In this document: piece after piece, positions 4,067 through 31,533 of the stretch
Numbering within the stretch: the stretch's first letter is position 1
Layout of the letters: each line of letters opens with the position of its first letter
NCBI RefSeq assembly: GCF_002939785.1
Contig: NZ_MDEC01000004.1
Coordinates: 124,001 to 188,000 of the forward strand
Direction of reading: 5' to 3'
DNA: 64,000 nucleotides
Origin: Xanthomonas codiaei
GTDB lineage: Bacteria; Pseudomonadota; Gammaproteobacteria; Xanthomonadales; Xanthomonadaceae
Program-made: the position numbers and the translations under genes
The notes under the pieces: generated by a model
What the model was told of the DNA's origin: nothing
What the model saw: the letters and a program-made list of their open reading frames with translations, nothing else
Databases searched by the model: none

Positions 4067-4094
4067 GGGATTTGGGATTTGGGATTTGGGATTC
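4067..4094 (+). repeat. Four GGGATTY heptads after bepA
   Basis: Three GGGATTT units and one GGGATTC start ten bases after the bepA stop codon. It has four GGG tracts on the sense strand, as after the Bax1-like gene and ppx. No conventional hairpin terminator was seen in this gap. Confidence 0.85.
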
Positions 4095-8579: not shown

Positions 8580-8637
8580 GAACGCCGCGGCCGGGGCCTC
8601 TCACGTAGCCAACGGCCCATCGGCTACCATGCGGCCC

Positions 8638-10164
8638 ATGCCAACATCCTCCCCCACGATTGCCCCCCTGCGTGATGGCGATTTTCTTGCCGCCATCGAT
8701 CTAGGTTCCAACAGTTTCCACATGGTCATCGCGCGCTACCTGATGGGTCAGCTGCGCGTCGTGGACCGCCTGCGCGAAACCGTGCGCATGGCCGATGGTC
8801 TGGATGGCAAGGGCGGCCTGTCCAACGAGGCGCGTCAGCGCGCGCTGGAGTGTCTGGCGCGCTTCGGGCAGCGCATCCGCGACGTGCCTTCGCTGCGCGT
8901 GCGCGCCCTGGCCACCAATACGGTGCGTCAGCTGCGCTCGCCGCAGACGTTTCTGATGCCGGCCGAAACCGCGCTCGGGCATGCGATCGAAGTGGTGAGC
9001 GGCCGCGAGGAGGCGCGCCTGATCTATCTCGGCGTCACCCACGCACAACCGCCCAAGCCCGACCAGCGCCGGCTGGTGATCGACATCGGCGGCGGCTCCA
9101 CGGAATTCATCATCGGCCGCGGCTTCCAGACCCTGGAGCGCGAAAGCCTGCAGGCAGGCTGCATCGCCAGCACCCGGCGGTTCTTTCCCGGCGGCAAGTT
9201 GTCCAAGAAGAAATGGAAGGACGCGCTGACCGAGATCGGTGCCGAATTCCAGCAGTTCGCCGGCCAGTACAAGGCGTTGGGTTGGCACGAAGCGATCGGT
9301 TCGTCGGGCACGCACAAGGCCATCGGCGAGATCTGCGCGGCGATGAAGCTCACCAAGGGCGCGATCACCGCGCAGGCGCTGCCGGCACTGCGCGAGGAGC
9401 TGCTCAAGGCCAAACGCATCGAAGACATCCAGCTGCCCGGGCTGGCCGCCGAACGCCGGCCGATCATTGCCGGCGGCATCCTGGTGCTCGAAGCGGCCTT
9501 CCAGGCGCTGGGGCTGGAGAAGCTGATGGTCAGCAAGGCGGCGATGCGCGAAGGCATCCTGTACGACATGCTTGGCCGCGCCGGCCAGAACGACCCGCGC
9601 GACAGTTCGGTGGCCTCGCTGGTGCAGCGCTATGGCATCGACGAAGTGCAGGCGCAGCGCGTGGAGGCCACCGCCTGCCGCCTGTTCGACCAGGTGTGCG
9701 ACTCCTGGCAACTGGACGGCGACGATGCGCAGGTGCTGCGTCGCGCCGCGCGCCTGCACGAACTGGGCCTGATCATCGCGCACAGCCAGTACCACGTACA
9801 CGGCAGCTACATCCTGGAGCACTCCGATATCGCCGGCTTCTCGCGGCAGGAACAGCAGGTGCTGGCTGCGCTGGTGCGCACGCATCGGCGCAACGTGCCC
9901 AAGACCGCCTTCGACGCCCTGCCCGACCGCCTGCTGCTGCCCACCCGCCGCAAGGCCGCGCTGCTGCGCCTGGCAGTGCTGCTGCACCGCGCGCACGAAG
10001 CGGACCCGATTCCGACCCTGGAACTCACCGCCGAAGACACACGGCTGTCATTGATCCTGTCGCAAAGCTGGATCGACTCACGCCCGCTGCTGCGCGCCGA
10101 CCTGATCGGCGAAGTGGAAAGCATGGCCGGCCTGGGTATCGTCTTCAAACCGTTTGTGACCTGA
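8638..10164 (+). CDS. ppx: Exopolyphosphatase (Ppx/GppA family)
   Basis: This 508-residue hydrolase releases phosphate from polyphosphate ends. The ASKHA nucleotide-binding fold is shown by AAIDLGSNSFHMVIA near the N-terminus and VIDIGGGSTEFIIG in the middle, and an HD-like helical domain follows (RLHELGLIIAHSQYHVHGSY). Length fits Ppx (about 500-513) better than the near-identical family of pppGpp phosphatases, although dual activity is common. Two ATGs, 8629 and 8638, are close together, and neither has a strong ribosome-binding site. The last codons (GIVFKPFVT, stop) are copied twice more downstream within a tandem repeat. Confidence 0.93.
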   Translation: MPTSSPTIAPLRDGDFLAAIDLGSNSFHMVIARYLMGQLRVVDRLRETVRMADGLDGKGGLSNEARQRALECLARFGQRIRDVPSLRVRALATNTVRQLRSPQTFLMPAETALGHAIEVVSGREEARLIYLGVTHAQPPKPDQRRLVIDIGGGSTEFIIGRGFQTLERESLQAGCIASTRRFFPGGKLSKKKWKDALTEIGAEFQQFAGQYKALGWHEAIGSSGTHKAIGEICAAMKLTKGAITAQALPALREELLKAKRIEDIQLPGLAAERRPIIAGGILVLEAAFQALGLEKLMVSKAAMREGILYDMLGRAGQNDPRDSSVASLVQRYGIDEVQAQRVEATACRLFDQVCDSWQLDGDDAQVLRRAARLHELGLIIAHSQYHVHGSYILEHSDIAGFSRQEQQVLAALVRTHRRNVPKTAFDALPDRLLLPTRRKAALLRLAVLLHRAHEADPIPTLELTAEDTRLSLILSQSWIDSRPLLRADLIGEVESMAGLGIVFKPFVT

Positions 10165-10180
10165 GGCCGGAGGCCTCAGG
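10160..10180 (+). terminator. Hairpin overlapping the ppx stop codon
   Basis: The inverted repeat CCTGAGGCC-GGA-GGCCTCAGG contains the ppx TGA in its left arm. There is no T-tract, so it may be a weak terminator, an RNA 3'-end stabiliser or simply a repeat element. Identical copies occur at 10460 and 10704 in the downstream repeat units. Confidence 0.6.
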
Positions 10181-10181
10181 T

Positions 10182-10279
10182 GGGATTCGGGATTCGGGAT
10201 TTGGGATTTGGGATTTGGGATTTGGGATTTGGGATTCGGGATTCGGGATTCGGGATTCGGGATTCGGGATTCGGGATTA
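10182..10279 (+). repeat. Array of 14 perfect-length GGGATTY heptads
   Basis: Fourteen 7-bp units follow without interruption: two GGGATTC, five GGGATTT, six GGGATTC and a final GGGATTA. With 14 GGG tracts this is the longest potential G-quadruplex array of the window. Shorter versions stand at 10482 (five units) and 10726 (about four) in the same repeat family. Such arrays are expected to vary in copy number by slippage. Confidence 0.95.
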
Positions 10280-10939
10280 GTTTGGCATGGGCTCTGATGT
10301 CTTTGCCTGACAGCCAGCGGTCACGTTAAACGCTGGCAGTGCACCGCTTCTGCGAATCTCCAATCCCGAATCTCGAATCCCGAATTCCCAATCCCGTCGC
10401 GCTTGTCACTACCGCGACTTGTCGGCACACCATCGGTATCGCGTTCAAACCGTTTGTGACCTGAGGCCGGAGGCCTCAGGCGGGATTCGGGATTCGGGAT
10501 TCGGGATTCGGGATTAGTTTGGCATTGGGCTCTGATGTCTTTGCCTGACAGCCAGCGGTCGCGTTAAACGCTGGCAGTGCACCGCTTCTGCGAATCTCCA
10601 ATCCCAAATCTCGAATCTCCAATCCCGAATTCCCATCCCGTCGCGCTTGTCACTATCGCGACTTGTCGGCACACCATCGGTATCGCCTTCAAAACATTTG
10701 TGACCTGAGGCCGGAGGCCTCAGGTGGGATTTGGGAGTGGGGATTCGGGATTTGTTTGGCATGGGCTCTGATGTCTTTGCCTGACAGCCAGCGGTCGCGT
10801 TAAACGCTGGCAGCGCACCGCTTTTGCGAATCTCGAATCTCGAATCCCCACTCCCGTCGCGCTTGTCACTACCGCGACTTGTCGGCGCAACATCAATGCC
10901 ATCGCGCTCCCGGAAGCTAGCGAAAACGGGAGAACGGGC

Positions 10940-12082
10940 ATGCGCTACGCGATCGTTACCGAAACCTATCCCCCCGAAGTCAACGGCGTGGCACTCACGG
11001 TGCATGGCCTGGAAACCGGGCTGCGCGCGCGCGGGCACCAGGTGGACGTGGTGCGGCCACGCCAGAACAACGATTCGGCCGAGGCCGCCGCCGATGCCTT
11101 GCTGGTGCGTGGCGCTGCGCTGCCGCGTTATCCGGGGCTGAAGTTCGGGTTGCCGGCCACCCAGCGCCTGGTCCGCCACTGGCGCACGAGCCAACCGGAT
11201 GCGATCTACATCGCCACCGAAGGCCCGTTGGGCTGGTCGGCGATGCGGGCCGCGCGCCGGCTGGGCATTCCGGTGGCCAGTGGCTTCCATACCCGCTTCG
11301 ACGAATACCTGCCCGACTACGGCGCGGCCTGGCTGCAAGGCGCCGCACTGCGCTGGATGCGGCGCTTCCACAACCAGGCCGAAGCCACCCTGGTACCCAC
11401 CCGCGAGCTGCAGCAGACCCTGCGCGATGACGGCTTCCAGCACGTGCAGGTGCTGGCGCGCGCGGTCGACAGCCAGCAGTTCGATCCGGCACGGCGCGAT
11501 CCGGTGTTGCGGGCGCAATGGGGGATCGAAGGCGAAGGGTTTGCGGCGATCTATGTCGGGCGCATCGCCAACGAAAAGAACCTGCCGTTGGCCGTGCATG
11601 CATTCCGCAAGCTACAGCAGGTCCGCCCGAAGGCGCGCTTCGTCTGGGTAGGCGATGGCCCGGCGCGCGAGAAGATCGCGCATGAAAACCCCGACTTCAT
11701 CTTCAGCGGCATCCAGCGCGGCGACGCGCTGGCGCGCCACTTCGCCAGCGGCGATCTGTTCCTGTTTCCCAGCCGCAGCGAGACCTTCGGCAATGTGACC
11801 CTGGAGGCCATGGCCAGCGGTGTGGCCACGGTCGCCTTCGACTACGGCGCCGCACGCGAGTACCTGCGCAATGGCCAGAACGGCGCGGCGGTGGAGACCG
11901 ATGAGGCCTTCGTCCAGGCCGCCGTGGCGCTGGCCCAGGACGATGCACTGCGCCAGCGCCTGGGTATGGCCGCCGCGCAGGCGATGAAGAAACTGCACCC
12001 GGACACTGTGGTGTCGGACTTCGAAGCCCTGCTGCTGGGCATCACCGCTGCACGGGGGCGCTATGTCGTCGACGCGGCTTGA
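10940..12082 (+). CDS. GT4-family glycosyltransferase
   Basis: This 380-residue GT-B glycosyltransferase resembles MgtA mannosyltransferases and sulfolipid/glycolipid synthases of the SqdX type. The N-terminus has the acceptor-side pattern YAIVTETYPPEVNGVA, a glycine-rich GLRARGH follows, and FHTRFDEYLPDYG is conserved in that subgroup. The donor-binding C-terminal domain has VGRIANEKN and the E-x7-E region SRSETFGNVTLEAMASG. No membrane helix is seen, so it probably acts at the inner face of the membrane. It overlaps the next gene (PAP2 phosphatase) by 20 bases, implying a shared function in lipid or glycolipid metabolism. The acceptor cannot be told from sequence. Confidence 0.85.
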   Translation: MRYAIVTETYPPEVNGVALTVHGLETGLRARGHQVDVVRPRQNNDSAEAAADALLVRGAALPRYPGLKFGLPATQRLVRHWRTSQPDAIYIATEGPLGWSAMRAARRLGIPVASGFHTRFDEYLPDYGAAWLQGAALRWMRRFHNQAEATLVPTRELQQTLRDDGFQHVQVLARAVDSQQFDPARRDPVLRAQWGIEGEGFAAIYVGRIANEKNLPLAVHAFRKLQQVRPKARFVWVGDGPAREKIAHENPDFIFSGIQRGDALARHFASGDLFLFPSRSETFGNVTLEAMASGVATVAFDYGAAREYLRNGQNGAAVETDEAFVQAAVALAQDDALRQRLGMAAAQAMKKLHPDTVVSDFEALLLGITAARGRYVVDAA

Positions 12083-26092: not shown

Positions 26093-28417
26093 ATGACTTC
26101 CGCTCGTCGTTTTGATGTCACTCCGTTGGCGCTGGCCCTGACTGCGCTGCTTCCCGTCGTCGCGCTTGCCGCCGAGCCGGTTGCTGCCGGCGGTGCAGAT
26201 GCCCCGGCCGCAGTGGCCGATGCCGCCGGCAACCCGACCCAACTGGATGCCATCAACGTGGTGTCGCAAGGCAGCACGCGCCAGGTACAGCGCATCAGCC
26301 GGCAGGACATCGAGCAGCTGACGCCGGGCAGCAGTGCCCTCAAGGCGGTGGAAAAACTGCCAGGCGTGCAGTTCCAGTCCGCCGATCCGTTCGGTACCTA
26401 CGAGTGGTCCACGCAGGTCACCCTGCACGGCTTCGATCAGAGCCGCCTGGGTTACACGCTGGATGGTATTCCGCTGGGCAACATGAGCTACGGCGTCACC
26501 AACGGCCTGCACATCACCCGCGCCATCATTTCCGAAAACCTCGGCTCGGTGGAGATCGCGCAAGGCGCCGGCGCGCTGGGCACCGCCTCCAACACCAATC
26601 TCGGCGGCACCATGCAGTTCTACTCGGCCGATCCGCAGACCACGCCCGGTGCGCGGCTGGTGCAGACGGTGGGCAGCGATGCGACGCGCCGCACCTTCGT
26701 GCGCGCCGACACCGGCGATCGCAATGGACTGTCGGCGTACCTGTCCTACGCCAACGCCAGTACCGACAAGTGGAAGGGCTTCGGCGACCAGACCTCCGAA
26801 CAGGCCAACCTCAAGACCGTGTACCAGTGGGGCGACGGCAATCGCCTGAGCCTGTTCCTGGATACCTCGCGGCGCAAGGAATACGACTACATGGACCTGT
26901 CCTTGACCAGCCAGCGCGTGCTGGGCTGGGACTTCGACTACCTGCAGCCGGATTGGGCCACCGCGGTGCAGATGGCGCGTGCCTACCAGAGCACCGGCGC
27001 CACCAGCGGTGTGGCCAACGGGTATCCGCAATCGCTGGCAAGCCTGCCCAGCGACTACAGCTGGCTGGATGCCAGCTACTACGCCGGTGGTGGCCTGCGT
27101 CGCGACAATCTGGCCGGCCTGTCCGGCACCTTCGTGTTCGGAGGCGCCACCCTGGATGCCACCGGCTACTACCACGCCAATCGTGGCGAAGGCCAATGGG
27201 TGACCCCGTACGTTGTCACCTCGGCGCAGATTCCTCTCTCCATGCGTACCACCGACTACGGGCTGGATCGTTTTGGCGGCACCAGCGCCCTGAAGTGGTC
27301 GTGGGGCAATCACGATCTGGAAGTGGGCCTATGGGCCGAGAATGCGCGCACCACGCAGGGCCGCAACTATTTCGCGCTCGGCAACGAGGGCTATACCTCG
27401 CTGTACAACGTGTACGAAGCGCAGACCCCGTTCCGCCGCGACTTCCTGCAGCGCTACACCACCCAGATGCGCATGCTCTACCTGCAGGACACCGTGCGCC
27501 TGCTCGATGACCGCCTCGCGTTGAACTACGGCGCAAAAGCGCTCGACACCACCACGCGCGCGCAATCGCTGGTGTCGACCACCGCGCTGGCGCAAGGCCG
27601 CATCCGCGCCGAAGACGGCTTCCTGCCGCAGGTGGGCATCAACTACAAGCTCGACGAGCGCCAGGACCTGTACGCCTCCTACAGCAAGAACATCGCCGCA
27701 TTCGGGTTCACCCCGTTCGCCACCTCGCAGGCCGCCTTCGACCGCAGCCGCGCCACGCTGGAGCCGGAACAATCGCAGACCGTGCAGGTGGGCTACCGTG
27801 TGCAGGACGCGCAGTTCCAGCTCTCGGCCGATGCCTACTTCACCAAATTCTCCAACCGCCTGCTGACCACCTCGCCGTGTACTGCGGTGCAGACCTGCGC
27901 GGCGATCCTGAGCAACGTCGGCGCCGTGCATAGCGCCGGTGCCGATCTGGCGCTGATGTGGCGCCCGGTGGAAGGCCTGAGCTGGTTGAACTCGCTGTCG
28001 TGGAATCGCTCGCGCTACCAGGACGATTACCTCAACAATGGCGTGGTCGCCACCTCGGGCAAGGACGTGGTCGGCATCCCGGCGCTGATGTTCTCCTCCA
28101 GCGCCAGCTATCAGATCGGCAACCTGCGCCTGGACCTGGACGGCAAGTACGTCGACAAGCGCTACATCACCTTCCTCAACGATTCGCAGGTGCCTTCGTA
28201 CTGGCTGTTCAACGCCGGCGCGCGTTACGACTTCGGCCGCCTCGGCGGGGTGGCGGACGTGGCCCTGGCGCTCAACATCACCAACCTCACCGACAAGCGC
28301 TACTTCGCCAGCACCGGCACCAACGGCTACGTCGCCTCCGATCCGGATGGCTACAACCAGACCATGGTGGTTGGCGCACCGCGGCAGACCTTCCTGAGCC
28401 TGGATGTGAAGTTCTGA
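26093..28417 (+). CDS. TonB-dependent outer-membrane receptor
   Basis: This 774-residue protein has a signal peptide (ending VVALAAEP, about residue 24). A TonB-box-like stretch (DAINVVSQ, about 50-57) is followed by a plug domain (IEQLTPGSSALKAVEKLPGVQ onward) and a 22-strand-type barrel rich in aromatic residues. It ends LSLDVKF, with the C-terminal phenylalanine used for outer-membrane assembly. Length is typical. The ligand is unknown. It is divergent from a phospholipase C with a Pho box, so an uptake role for a phosphorus compound is possible (inference). The 3' end of the gene is partly copied twice in the following repeat array. Confidence 0.93.
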   Translation: MTSARRFDVTPLALALTALLPVVALAAEPVAAGGADAPAAVADAAGNPTQLDAINVVSQGSTRQVQRISRQDIEQLTPGSSALKAVEKLPGVQFQSADPFGTYEWSTQVTLHGFDQSRLGYTLDGIPLGNMSYGVTNGLHITRAIISENLGSVEIAQGAGALGTASNTNLGGTMQFYSADPQTTPGARLVQTVGSDATRRTFVRADTGDRNGLSAYLSYANASTDKWKGFGDQTSEQANLKTVYQWGDGNRLSLFLDTSRRKEYDYMDLSLTSQRVLGWDFDYLQPDWATAVQMARAYQSTGATSGVANGYPQSLASLPSDYSWLDASYYAGGGLRRDNLAGLSGTFVFGGATLDATGYYHANRGEGQWVTPYVVTSAQIPLSMRTTDYGLDRFGGTSALKWSWGNHDLEVGLWAENARTTQGRNYFALGNEGYTSLYNVYEAQTPFRRDFLQRYTTQMRMLYLQDTVRLLDDRLALNYGAKALDTTTRAQSLVSTTALAQGRIRAEDGFLPQVGINYKLDERQDLYASYSKNIAAFGFTPFATSQAAFDRSRATLEPEQSQTVQVGYRVQDAQFQLSADAYFTKFSNRLLTTSPCTAVQTCAAILSNVGAVHSAGADLALMWRPVEGLSWLNSLSWNRSRYQDDYLNNGVVATSGKDVVGIPALMFSSSASYQIGNLRLDLDGKYVDKRYITFLNDSQVPSYWLFNAGARYDFGRLGGVADVALALNITNLTDKRYFASTGTNGYVASDPDGYNQTMVVGAPRQTFLSLDVKF

Positions 28418-28996
28418 GCGTCTGCCGGCGGCGCCCCTCATCCGGCGCTGCGCGCCACCTTCTCCCGCATGCGAGAAAAGGGTGAAGAAGGAAGTGATGA
28501 CCTCCATCCGGCGCTGCGCCCCCCTTTCCCCGCCCGCGGGGGAAGGTGCCCGAAGGGCGGATGGGGGCAGCGGCGAACGTGGCCCTGGCGCTCGACATCA
28601 CCAACCTCACCGACAGATGTGAAGTTCTGAGCACCTGCCCGTGGCGCCCCTCATCCGGCGCTGCGCGCCACCTTCTCCCGCAAGCGGGAGAAGGGTGAAG
28701 AAGGCAGTGATGACTTCCATCAGGCGCTGCACACTCCTTCCCCCGCACGCGGGGGAAGATGCCCGAAGGGCAGATGGGGGCAGCGGCGAACGTAGCCCTG
28801 GCGCTCAACATCACCAACCTCACCGACAGATGTGAAGTTCTGAGCACCTGCCGGTGGCGCCCCTCATCCGGCGCTGCGCGCCACCTTCTCCCGCAAGCGG
28901 GAGAAGGGTGAAGGCGGTGATGAGCTCCATCCGGCGCTGCGCCCCCGCTTCCCCCGCACGCGGGGGAAGGTGCCCGAAGGGCGGATGGGGGCAGCG
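28257..28996 (+). repeat. 213-bp tandem array carrying copies of the TonB-receptor 3' end
   Basis: Stop codons at 28415, 28628 and 28841 are exactly 213 bp apart. Copies 2 and 3 contain gene positions 28257-28295 joined directly to 28403-28417, so 107 bp of the gene are missing from each copy. After each stop comes about 150 bp of REP-like sequence with hairpins such as CCTTCTCCCGC-AA-GCGGGAGAAGG and CCCCCGC-AC-GCGGGGG. The third unit ends near 28996 without a further gene tail. Apart from the receptor 3' end at 28257-28417, nothing here codes for protein. Confidence 0.93.
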
Positions 28997-29123
28997 CGCG
29001 AAGTAGCCCCCTGCCCGGCTCGTGATTGCCCGCTCGTGCACCGCCTGCTCCCGCCTCCCGGCAGGCGCCGGAGCAAGGTGGCGGCCGTCCTGCACTGCCG
29101 CATGGCGGATGCGGCATCGAGCA

Positions 29124-31073: not shown

Positions 31074-31533
31074 GGGGCTTCTCCTGGAGCGGCGGGCGGT
31101 CGGATGGCGCGAAGCGGGGGCTGCAATGAATTCTTAGTCGGACTGTCGCTGCAGCGCAACATAAAAGTCGCGCTCGCTTGATCCAGCGCACATCCTTCGC
31201 CTGGCGATGCGCCGATCCGATAGGCGTTTCATCGACCACTGCTGTGGAATCTTGATGTTGGAGATTCGGGATTCGGGATTCGGGATTCGGGAGTCGGGAG
31301 TCCGCGTCCGGGACCTGGCGTCTGGAATGCGTACTGACAGTCTCGGGCAGGCCTGTAGAGATGTGTCGTTCGCAAAGCGCCCCCGCTCCGCACGCAGCGC
31401 GGCCAGCTGGCGTCGATCGCTTGCCGGTCGGTCCTTGGGATTTCGTATTCACAGGCACGGCAAGCCGGGGGCTCTCTCAGCGATCCCCGGCACTTGCATC
31501 ACGCACTGAGTGAGACGCCCCCGAGGCGGCTTC
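31074..31533. other. Intergenic region between the porin and cysA
   Basis: No credible gene is seen in these 460 bp. It contains the promoter region of the porin gene (31074 onward) and a heptad repeat at 31268-31302. The remainder shows no conserved signal that I recognise, and no clear terminator for cysA. Confidence 0.5.
31268..31302 (+). repeat. Five GGGATTC/GGGAGTC heptads
   Basis: Three GGGATTC and two GGGAGTC units stand in uninterrupted register, giving five GGG tracts on the plus strand. Unlike the other arrays, the G-rich strand here is antisense to both flanking genes. Confidence 0.9.

Follow-up and report, generated by a model that had tools for sequence, protein, structure and literature searches.

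Why should the end of a gene be copied, stop codon included, behind the gene itself? This question is raised by ppx of Xanthomonas codiaei, whose gap to the following glycosyltransferase gene holds three tandem units at positions 10135 to 10894 of the window, by which we mean the whole stretch of 64,000 nucleotides that was analysed. Every unit contains, in the same order, the last ten ppx codons with the stop codon, a perfect hairpin at the stop, heptad repeats in the sense direction, a core of 73 to 74 nt, opposing heptads, and a right flank of 42 nt. The locus is composed as follows.

8629–10164, plus strand: ppx, of the exopolyphosphatase family; intact, its 3′ end forming the start of unit 1 (Pfam Ppx-GppA, 3.1e-66; domain III, 3.8e-44; open reading frame call)
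10135–10434, plus strand: unit 1, 300 bp (unit comparison)
10135–10159: tail of unit 1, up to the palindrome
10160–10180, plus strand: stop-codon palindrome of unit 1, CCTGAGGCCGGAGGCCTCAGG
10181–10278: heptads of unit 1 (14)
10279–10351: core of unit 1
10352–10392: opposing heptads of unit 1
10393–10434: right flank of unit 1
10435–10678, plus strand: unit 2, 244 bp (unit comparison, fold)
10435–10459: tail copy of unit 2
10460–10480: palindrome of unit 2
10481–10515: heptads of unit 2 (5)
10516–10589: core of unit 2
10590–10636: opposing heptads of unit 2
10637–10678: right flank of unit 2
10679–10894, plus strand: unit 3, 216 bp (unit comparison, relatives' joint, fold)
10679–10703: tail copy of unit 3
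10704–10724: palindrome of unit 3
10725–10752: heptads of unit 3 (4)
10753–10825: core of unit 3
10826–10852: opposing heptads of unit 3
10853–10894: right flank of unit 3
10940–12082, plus strand: next gene, glycosyltransferase family 4/group 1 (Pfam PF13439, PF13692)

The first-pass annotation had described a three-unit array at this place, with each unit opening on the last ten ppx codons and only the first belonging to a gene, and comparison of the units bore out both its position and its content. The lengths given there for units 1 and 2 were correct, while the third unit, put at about 230 bp, measures 216 bp when taken in register. Units 1 and 2 differ in length by 56 bp, which is, as had been proposed, mostly a matter of heptad number (63 bp of heptads minus 7 bp elsewhere). 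Translation gave the same tails as before, namely GIVFKPFVT, GIAFKPFVT and GIAFKTFVT in units 1, 2 and 3, each followed by the stop. The heptads are of the type GGGATTY, with one variant (GGGAGT) in unit 3; the first of them begins 17 nt past the ppx stop, and the opposing array lies 3′ of the core. Two further heptad arrays were seen in the window, at 4067–4093 (close behind a stop codon) and at 31263–31299, with no tail copies by eye.

The variant tails could be imagined as silent cassettes able to rewrite the C terminus of ppx by recombination. The copies do differ from the gene in the window, and the ppx tails of relatives mostly read GIAFKPFV. However, the exchange would affect no more than the last nine residues of a housekeeping enzyme, with no sign of selection for variety, and we find this explanation scarcely credible.

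The array was scored at 977 by TRF (10244–10839), and a three-heptad pattern with at most one mismatch was matched 475 times in the genome, on both strands, versus once for its reversed control. These results indicate that the array is not due to chance. An error of assembly might be suspected in a draft genome of 110 contigs, and gap repeats of such a kind do occur in one relative, G011. However, no N run lies within the array, the units differ at 4 to 9 of 161 sites as well as in heptad number, and the longest exact match between any two of them is 52 nt, so that reads of ordinary length can tell them apart. An artefact is therefore very unlikely.

The locus was compared among 35 Xanthomonas genomes (the window's own, G000, and 34 others), and ppx was found at its locus in all of them. 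Between ppx and the glycosyltransferase gene lie 775 bp here versus 197 to 383 bp in the 34 relatives, each of which has a single ppx tail in its gap versus three here, and the array is restricted to one of the 35 genomes. Exactly one heptad cassette is present in 33 of the 34 relatives and none in G024. It had been reasoned earlier that relatives with neither tail copy nor heptads would make the array a single accident; the tail copy is indeed missing from them, yet the heptads are there in all but one. The nearest relative on the ppx–glycosyltransferase tree, built with 5 of its 35 rows reduced to a third of the columns, is G017 (SH-aLRT 98).

Collectively, these results suggest that the array probably arose when a hairpin-rich gene end was duplicated in tandem in this lineage alone, with the tail as a passenger. 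First, the stop hairpin and the long stem of heptads and anti-heptads would have stalled or slipped the polymerase during copying of the ppx end; synthesis would then have re-engaged about ten codons upstream of the stop, joining the right flank (..CACACCATC) to GGTATCGC and giving rise to the first extra unit. Second, unequal exchange or slippage between units may have produced another duplication: the new joint is common to units 1 and 2, between which 4 of 161 non-heptad sites differ, whereas unit 3, which has the ancestral right joint, differs from each of them at 9. The joint of unit 3 to the downstream DNA is that of the relatives, and units 1 and 2 lack it. This divergence, together with the occurrence of the relatives' joint in unit 3 alone, suggests that the array most likely grew in two steps, new units being added on the gene side of unit 3. 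Third, slippage would have let the heptad numbers drift to 14, 5 and 4.

When a tandem duplication has one end inside a gene and the other past the gene, the gene itself stays whole in unit 1 and every further unit brings a dead tail; with the gene whole, the dead tails would cost nothing. The copied tails are therefore best read as dead passengers, which can be accounted for without a function. The joint itself counts against the explanation as it stands, as long microhomology is absent and the one shared string seen by eye is a nearby ATCGCG.

The hairpin at the stop has a longer history than the array. Its 9-bp stem is perfect in 23 of 34 relatives and has at least 8 pairs in 27 of 34, and eight different loops are found among the genomes that keep it, this one included; G013 and G017, close relatives of the source genome, have lost the palindrome. 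This pattern of substitution argues that the palindrome is an old hairpin, in which the stem has been kept while the loop varies. As RNA, the units are predicted to fold into the stop hairpin and a long heptad stem (unit 3, −108.7 kcal/mol, z −7.6; unit 2, −111.3 kcal/mol, z −5.8). A scan for U-tract terminators in 9900–11100 found none, with a mean of 1.4 in shuffled sequences; the stem is present and the T run is absent. Searching Rfam gave no family above the cut-off, the one match being a chance match of 23.6 bits versus a cut-off of 95. The conserved part is the stop hairpin with the paired heptads, which would most likely serve as a 3′-end structure of the ppx mRNA in termination or protection.

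Such a role would also allow the extra units to be selected for themselves, repeated hairpins strengthening 3′-end processing or insulating the downstream glycosyltransferase gene. The three copies of the 21-nt palindrome do not differ at all (0 of 21) while the tails differ at 2 to 3 of 25 positions, the hairpin is conserved in the genus, and transcripts start or stop more commonly at G4-forming repeats than at controls, according to the part of PMC4692102 available. However, the numbers are small, and the extra units occur in one genome, with one tail in each of the 34 relatives. Selection for the extra units appears improbable, and duplication with a passenger tail is kept as the preferred reading.

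A different answer was given by the first-pass annotation, in which the tail was carried as part of a mobile or recombining RNA 3′ structure marked by the conserved palindrome. Part of this idea has been strengthened, as the hairpin is old, being perfect in 23 relatives, and the cassette is a recombining block exchanged between species (see below). Mobility of the ppx structure as the reason for the tail is not supported: no second site was found in the source genome for the tail (40 of 148 candidates scored) or for the palindrome (all sites with up to two mismatches taken in), and the gaps of the 34 relatives contain no second tail. The core was likewise not found outside the ppx locus in this genome. 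The ppx unit as a MITE or other transposable element was rejected, as tail (among the 40 of 148 candidates scored), core and palindrome were found at this locus only. Furthermore, when a tandem duplication starts a few codons upstream of the stop, the tail is copied along passively.

Other gene ends in this genome have been copied as well. In a sample of 464 kb (the window plus twenty 20-kb stretches of contigs 1 and 4), TRF detected five arrays with a period of at least 50, three of which hold gene tails, those of ppx, a TonB receptor and pilB. The second of these has three units.

28403–29009, plus strand: second three-unit array, behind a TonB-dependent receptor gene (TRF, sequence comparison)

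Its tails are chimeric, a piece of the gene interior (about 28252–28295) being fused to the last codons and the stop, between palindromic blocks. No tail copies were found at this locus in six relatives examined in full. The palindromic block CCTCATCCGCCCTTCGGGCACCTTCTCCCG has 100 sites with at most two mismatches in the source genome and none for its reversed control. Among 19 block clusters, picked from the 100 sites with same-direction sites first, so that other clusters may exist, four have gene tails next to blocks or between them (pilB, TonB, GH94 and an M23-type peptidase, the last named by eye), one has a gene head (ArgE-like, by eye), and one a relocated pilB tail; the remaining 13 contain intergenic DNA repeated only, or no clear match. 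The GH94, peptidase and ArgE-like copies are placed as follows.

L395, 2652–3440: GH94 gene tail in four extra copies, with five palindromic blocks about 172 bp apart
L396, 2207–2850, and L397, 1993–2380: M23-type peptidase gene tail copies and an ArgE-like gene head copy, beside palindromic blocks

An automatic scan of sampled stretches from four genomes, at a score of at least 17, returned five tail copies versus seven head copies as the control. Two of the five tails are real (ppx and pilB), one is weak, and two are artefacts of gaps in G011; the seven heads include false genes and one G011 gap artefact. An apparent tail copy in L111 had a score of only 17. The G011 cases (L167 and L180) are repeats that flank N positions, scaffold-gap duplicates that mimic gene-tail copies. 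An excess of tail over head copies, 5 versus 7, was hence not shown. No real tail copy turned up among 834 genes in 1.2 Mb sampled from three other genomes, which suggests that the duplication process is not frequent everywhere. Gene-end duplication recurs in this genome and at pilB, and neither a genus-wide rate nor a preference for tails is supported.

The pilB locus allows the joints of such duplications to be compared between species.

L123, 12095–12647 (own genome, contig 1): pilB (TIGR02538) tail and palindromic block in tandem
L161, about 927–1140 (own genome, contig 2): transplanted pilB tail unit between two blocks 184 bp apart, with other genes around

The pilB tail was matched in 33 of 35 genomes and occurs in more than one copy in 8 of these 33, the second copy in G025 being a 40-nt match on another contig. 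Several species have arrays of two to four tail copies (L131–L160), and their joints are of different kinds. In the first kind, found in G000, G027, G011, G012 and G009, the block is followed closely by a tail that opens 135 nt upstream of the stop; the third copies in G027 and G011 start at 124 and 131. This 135-nt joint lies at GAAGG, a string that also ends the block (with two bases between in G000). In the second kind, the tail starts at 84 nt (G013) or 92 nt (G030) and about 50 nt of other sequence follow the block; these two joints may be one event. The third kind belongs to G032, in which weaker tail copies, from 93 and 65 nt, form a heptad-like tandem with a heptad-like spacer and no block. 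A separate inverted-repeat element, about 150 bp long and bounded by sequences like AGAGCGGCTAACAAAAC..GTTTTGTTAGCTGCTCT, was observed in the ppx gap of G030 and in the pilB regions of G009 and G033, and it looks like a dispersed miniature element.

One pilB unit has moved. No counterpart of the copy on contig 2 was seen in any other of the 35 genomes, and the empty site can be seen in G013, G026 and G010, where the flanks abut over a single block with 167, 191 and 191 bp less between the aligned flanks. The insert corresponds to about one unit of the pilB array (period 185) and lies at a block. We infer that the unit was likely relocated by recombination between dispersed palindromes, through an excised circle or a double exchange. 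The ppx array looks like more than an accident because gene-end duplication recurs at other loci and because this one unit was transplanted.

These observations revive the idea of mobility in a wider form, as a tail-plus-palindrome unit did relocate at pilB. Tail, hairpin and cassette of ppx might accordingly be seen as a mobile 3′-end module, units of which leave the array, perhaps as circles, and re-enter by recombination between palindromic blocks. The pilB unit on another contig, of array-unit size and found in this genome only, and the three relatives with one block and no tail at the insertion site fit this proposal. However, the one known relocation concerns pilB and another palindrome, no second locus was found for the tail or palindrome of ppx, and plain gene conversion or a double crossover between blocks would suffice with no dedicated element. 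A mobile module is thus doubtful as the origin of the ppx array, for which we retain tandem duplication in place.

The heptad cassette of ppx has a history of its own. The cores of 34 genomes fall into eight clusters. Clusters 1/2/3 and 4/5 show weak likeness (mean scores of 0.26–0.31 versus 0.13 for shuffled sequences), clusters 3/6 less (0.25), and most other comparisons are near the shuffled level. The clusters conflict with the tree: cores are unrelated in the sisters G005 and G015 and in the close pair G020 and G023, and identical in the distant G003 and G011. This conflict shows that the cassette has been swapped as a block between species. In a site-by-site comparison, with a small number of conflicting sites and gap columns scattered through each genome's tract, the replaced tracts run, counted from the ppx stop, from −58 to 165 in G023, −34 to 182 in G021 and −6 to 171 in G005; the tract in G003 and G011 covers 700 to 800 bp. 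The short tracts in G005, G021 and G023 coincide with the heptad cassette. An ectopic origin of the cores, by exchange among loci within one genome, was rejected, as each class matches the ppx locus, with two weak matches elsewhere (32 of 35 genomes with a match).

Exchange was also assessed by pairs. At ppx (528 pairs among 33 relatives, with G000 and G024 left out), cassettes are different in 7 of 19 close pairs; in distant pairs, they are at least as alike as the flanks in 17 of 473 and at least 95% alike in 1 of 473. Locus C13, a single array, is highly variable without shared classes (3 of 6 close pairs different, 2 of 281 distant pairs with cassettes at least as alike as the flanks), and locus C9, an inverted pair, gave 0 of 14 and 0 of 340. 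A general exchange of cassettes at heptad loci is therefore unsupported by these two loci. The arm types at ppx agree in 31 of 33 relatives, and about 9 of 10 independent pairs show a joint change of both arms, none an opposite one, as is expected if cassettes move whole. At C9, the arms are mismatched in 7 of 28 genomes, although the association is still present (p 0.008). Strict arm matching as proof of a selected stem is weakened by these mismatches and by the arrival of arms with whole cassettes.

It is tempting to draw these loci together. Gene ends of Xanthomonas fused to palindromic or heptad hairpins might be duplicating, relocatable modules, which are captured, tandemly amplified with joints that differ between species, and able to re-enter singly at distant palindromes, with ppx cassettes traded between species, some in tracts of less than 250 bp. 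We consider this general picture unlikely at present; if true, intergenic DNA would carry a continuing flow of dead gene ends. The ppx locus offers a three-copy record of cassette copying for heptads whose function is left open in the available part of PMC4692102, and the 35-genome series presents whole cassettes replaced between fixed boundaries. At pilB, a tail duplicated with different joints in several species, with one unit transplanted, makes the mechanism testable by sequencing alone. Annotators should be aware that a stop-ended tail behind a gene can duplicate the end of that gene, and that in some cases an apparent tail is an artefact of a scaffold gap.

Compared to known repeats, the ppx locus belongs, by the sequence of its heptads, to a class already described in Xanthomonas. 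Heptads of the GGGNATC type were reported in Xanthomonas and Nostoc by Rehm et al. 2015 (PMC4692102). According to the available part of that study, GGGANTN heptads are intergenic, occupy the sense strand no more than 50 bp from a stop codon, vary in unit number, form 70 convergent inverted pairs in Xcc and 75 in Xac, and as oligonucleotides form G-quadruplexes in vitro, in addition to the transcript starts and stops mentioned above. The 14, 5 and 4 ppx heptads have GGGA, T at position 6 and at least four units, as in the GGGANTN class. While the repeats in that part of PMC4692102 show conserved positions and length variation, ppx adds a copied gene tail, tandem copies of the whole cassette and exchange between species; as far as this source goes, tail copying and tandem whole cassettes are new beside the known heptads.

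REP and BIME sequences with RAYT transposases have dispersed intergenic palindromes and clustered repeats in common with the blocks described here, as far as the available part of PMC2817692 describes them. However, the GTRG/GTAG head (GTAG in Xanthomonas REPs; Nunvar et al. 2010, in the same part of PMC2817692) is absent, by reading, from the ppx palindrome and from the CCTCATCCGCCCTTCGGGCACCTTCTCCCG and CCTCATCCG blocks. REPs are dispersed, whereas the ppx palindrome is not. In the literature searched, which mostly leaves out subscription papers, we recognised no description of gene-tail arrays of the ppx kind. The CCTCATCCG..CTTCTCCCG block may resemble rhizobial intergenic mosaic elements.

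Slippage or template switching at palindromes is a general mechanism of tandem duplication. The loci described here share with it short units, hairpins near the joint and, at pilB, a short string common to joint and block. Unlike in plain slippage, gene ends have been copied together with their hairpin at several loci, and one unit has been transplanted.
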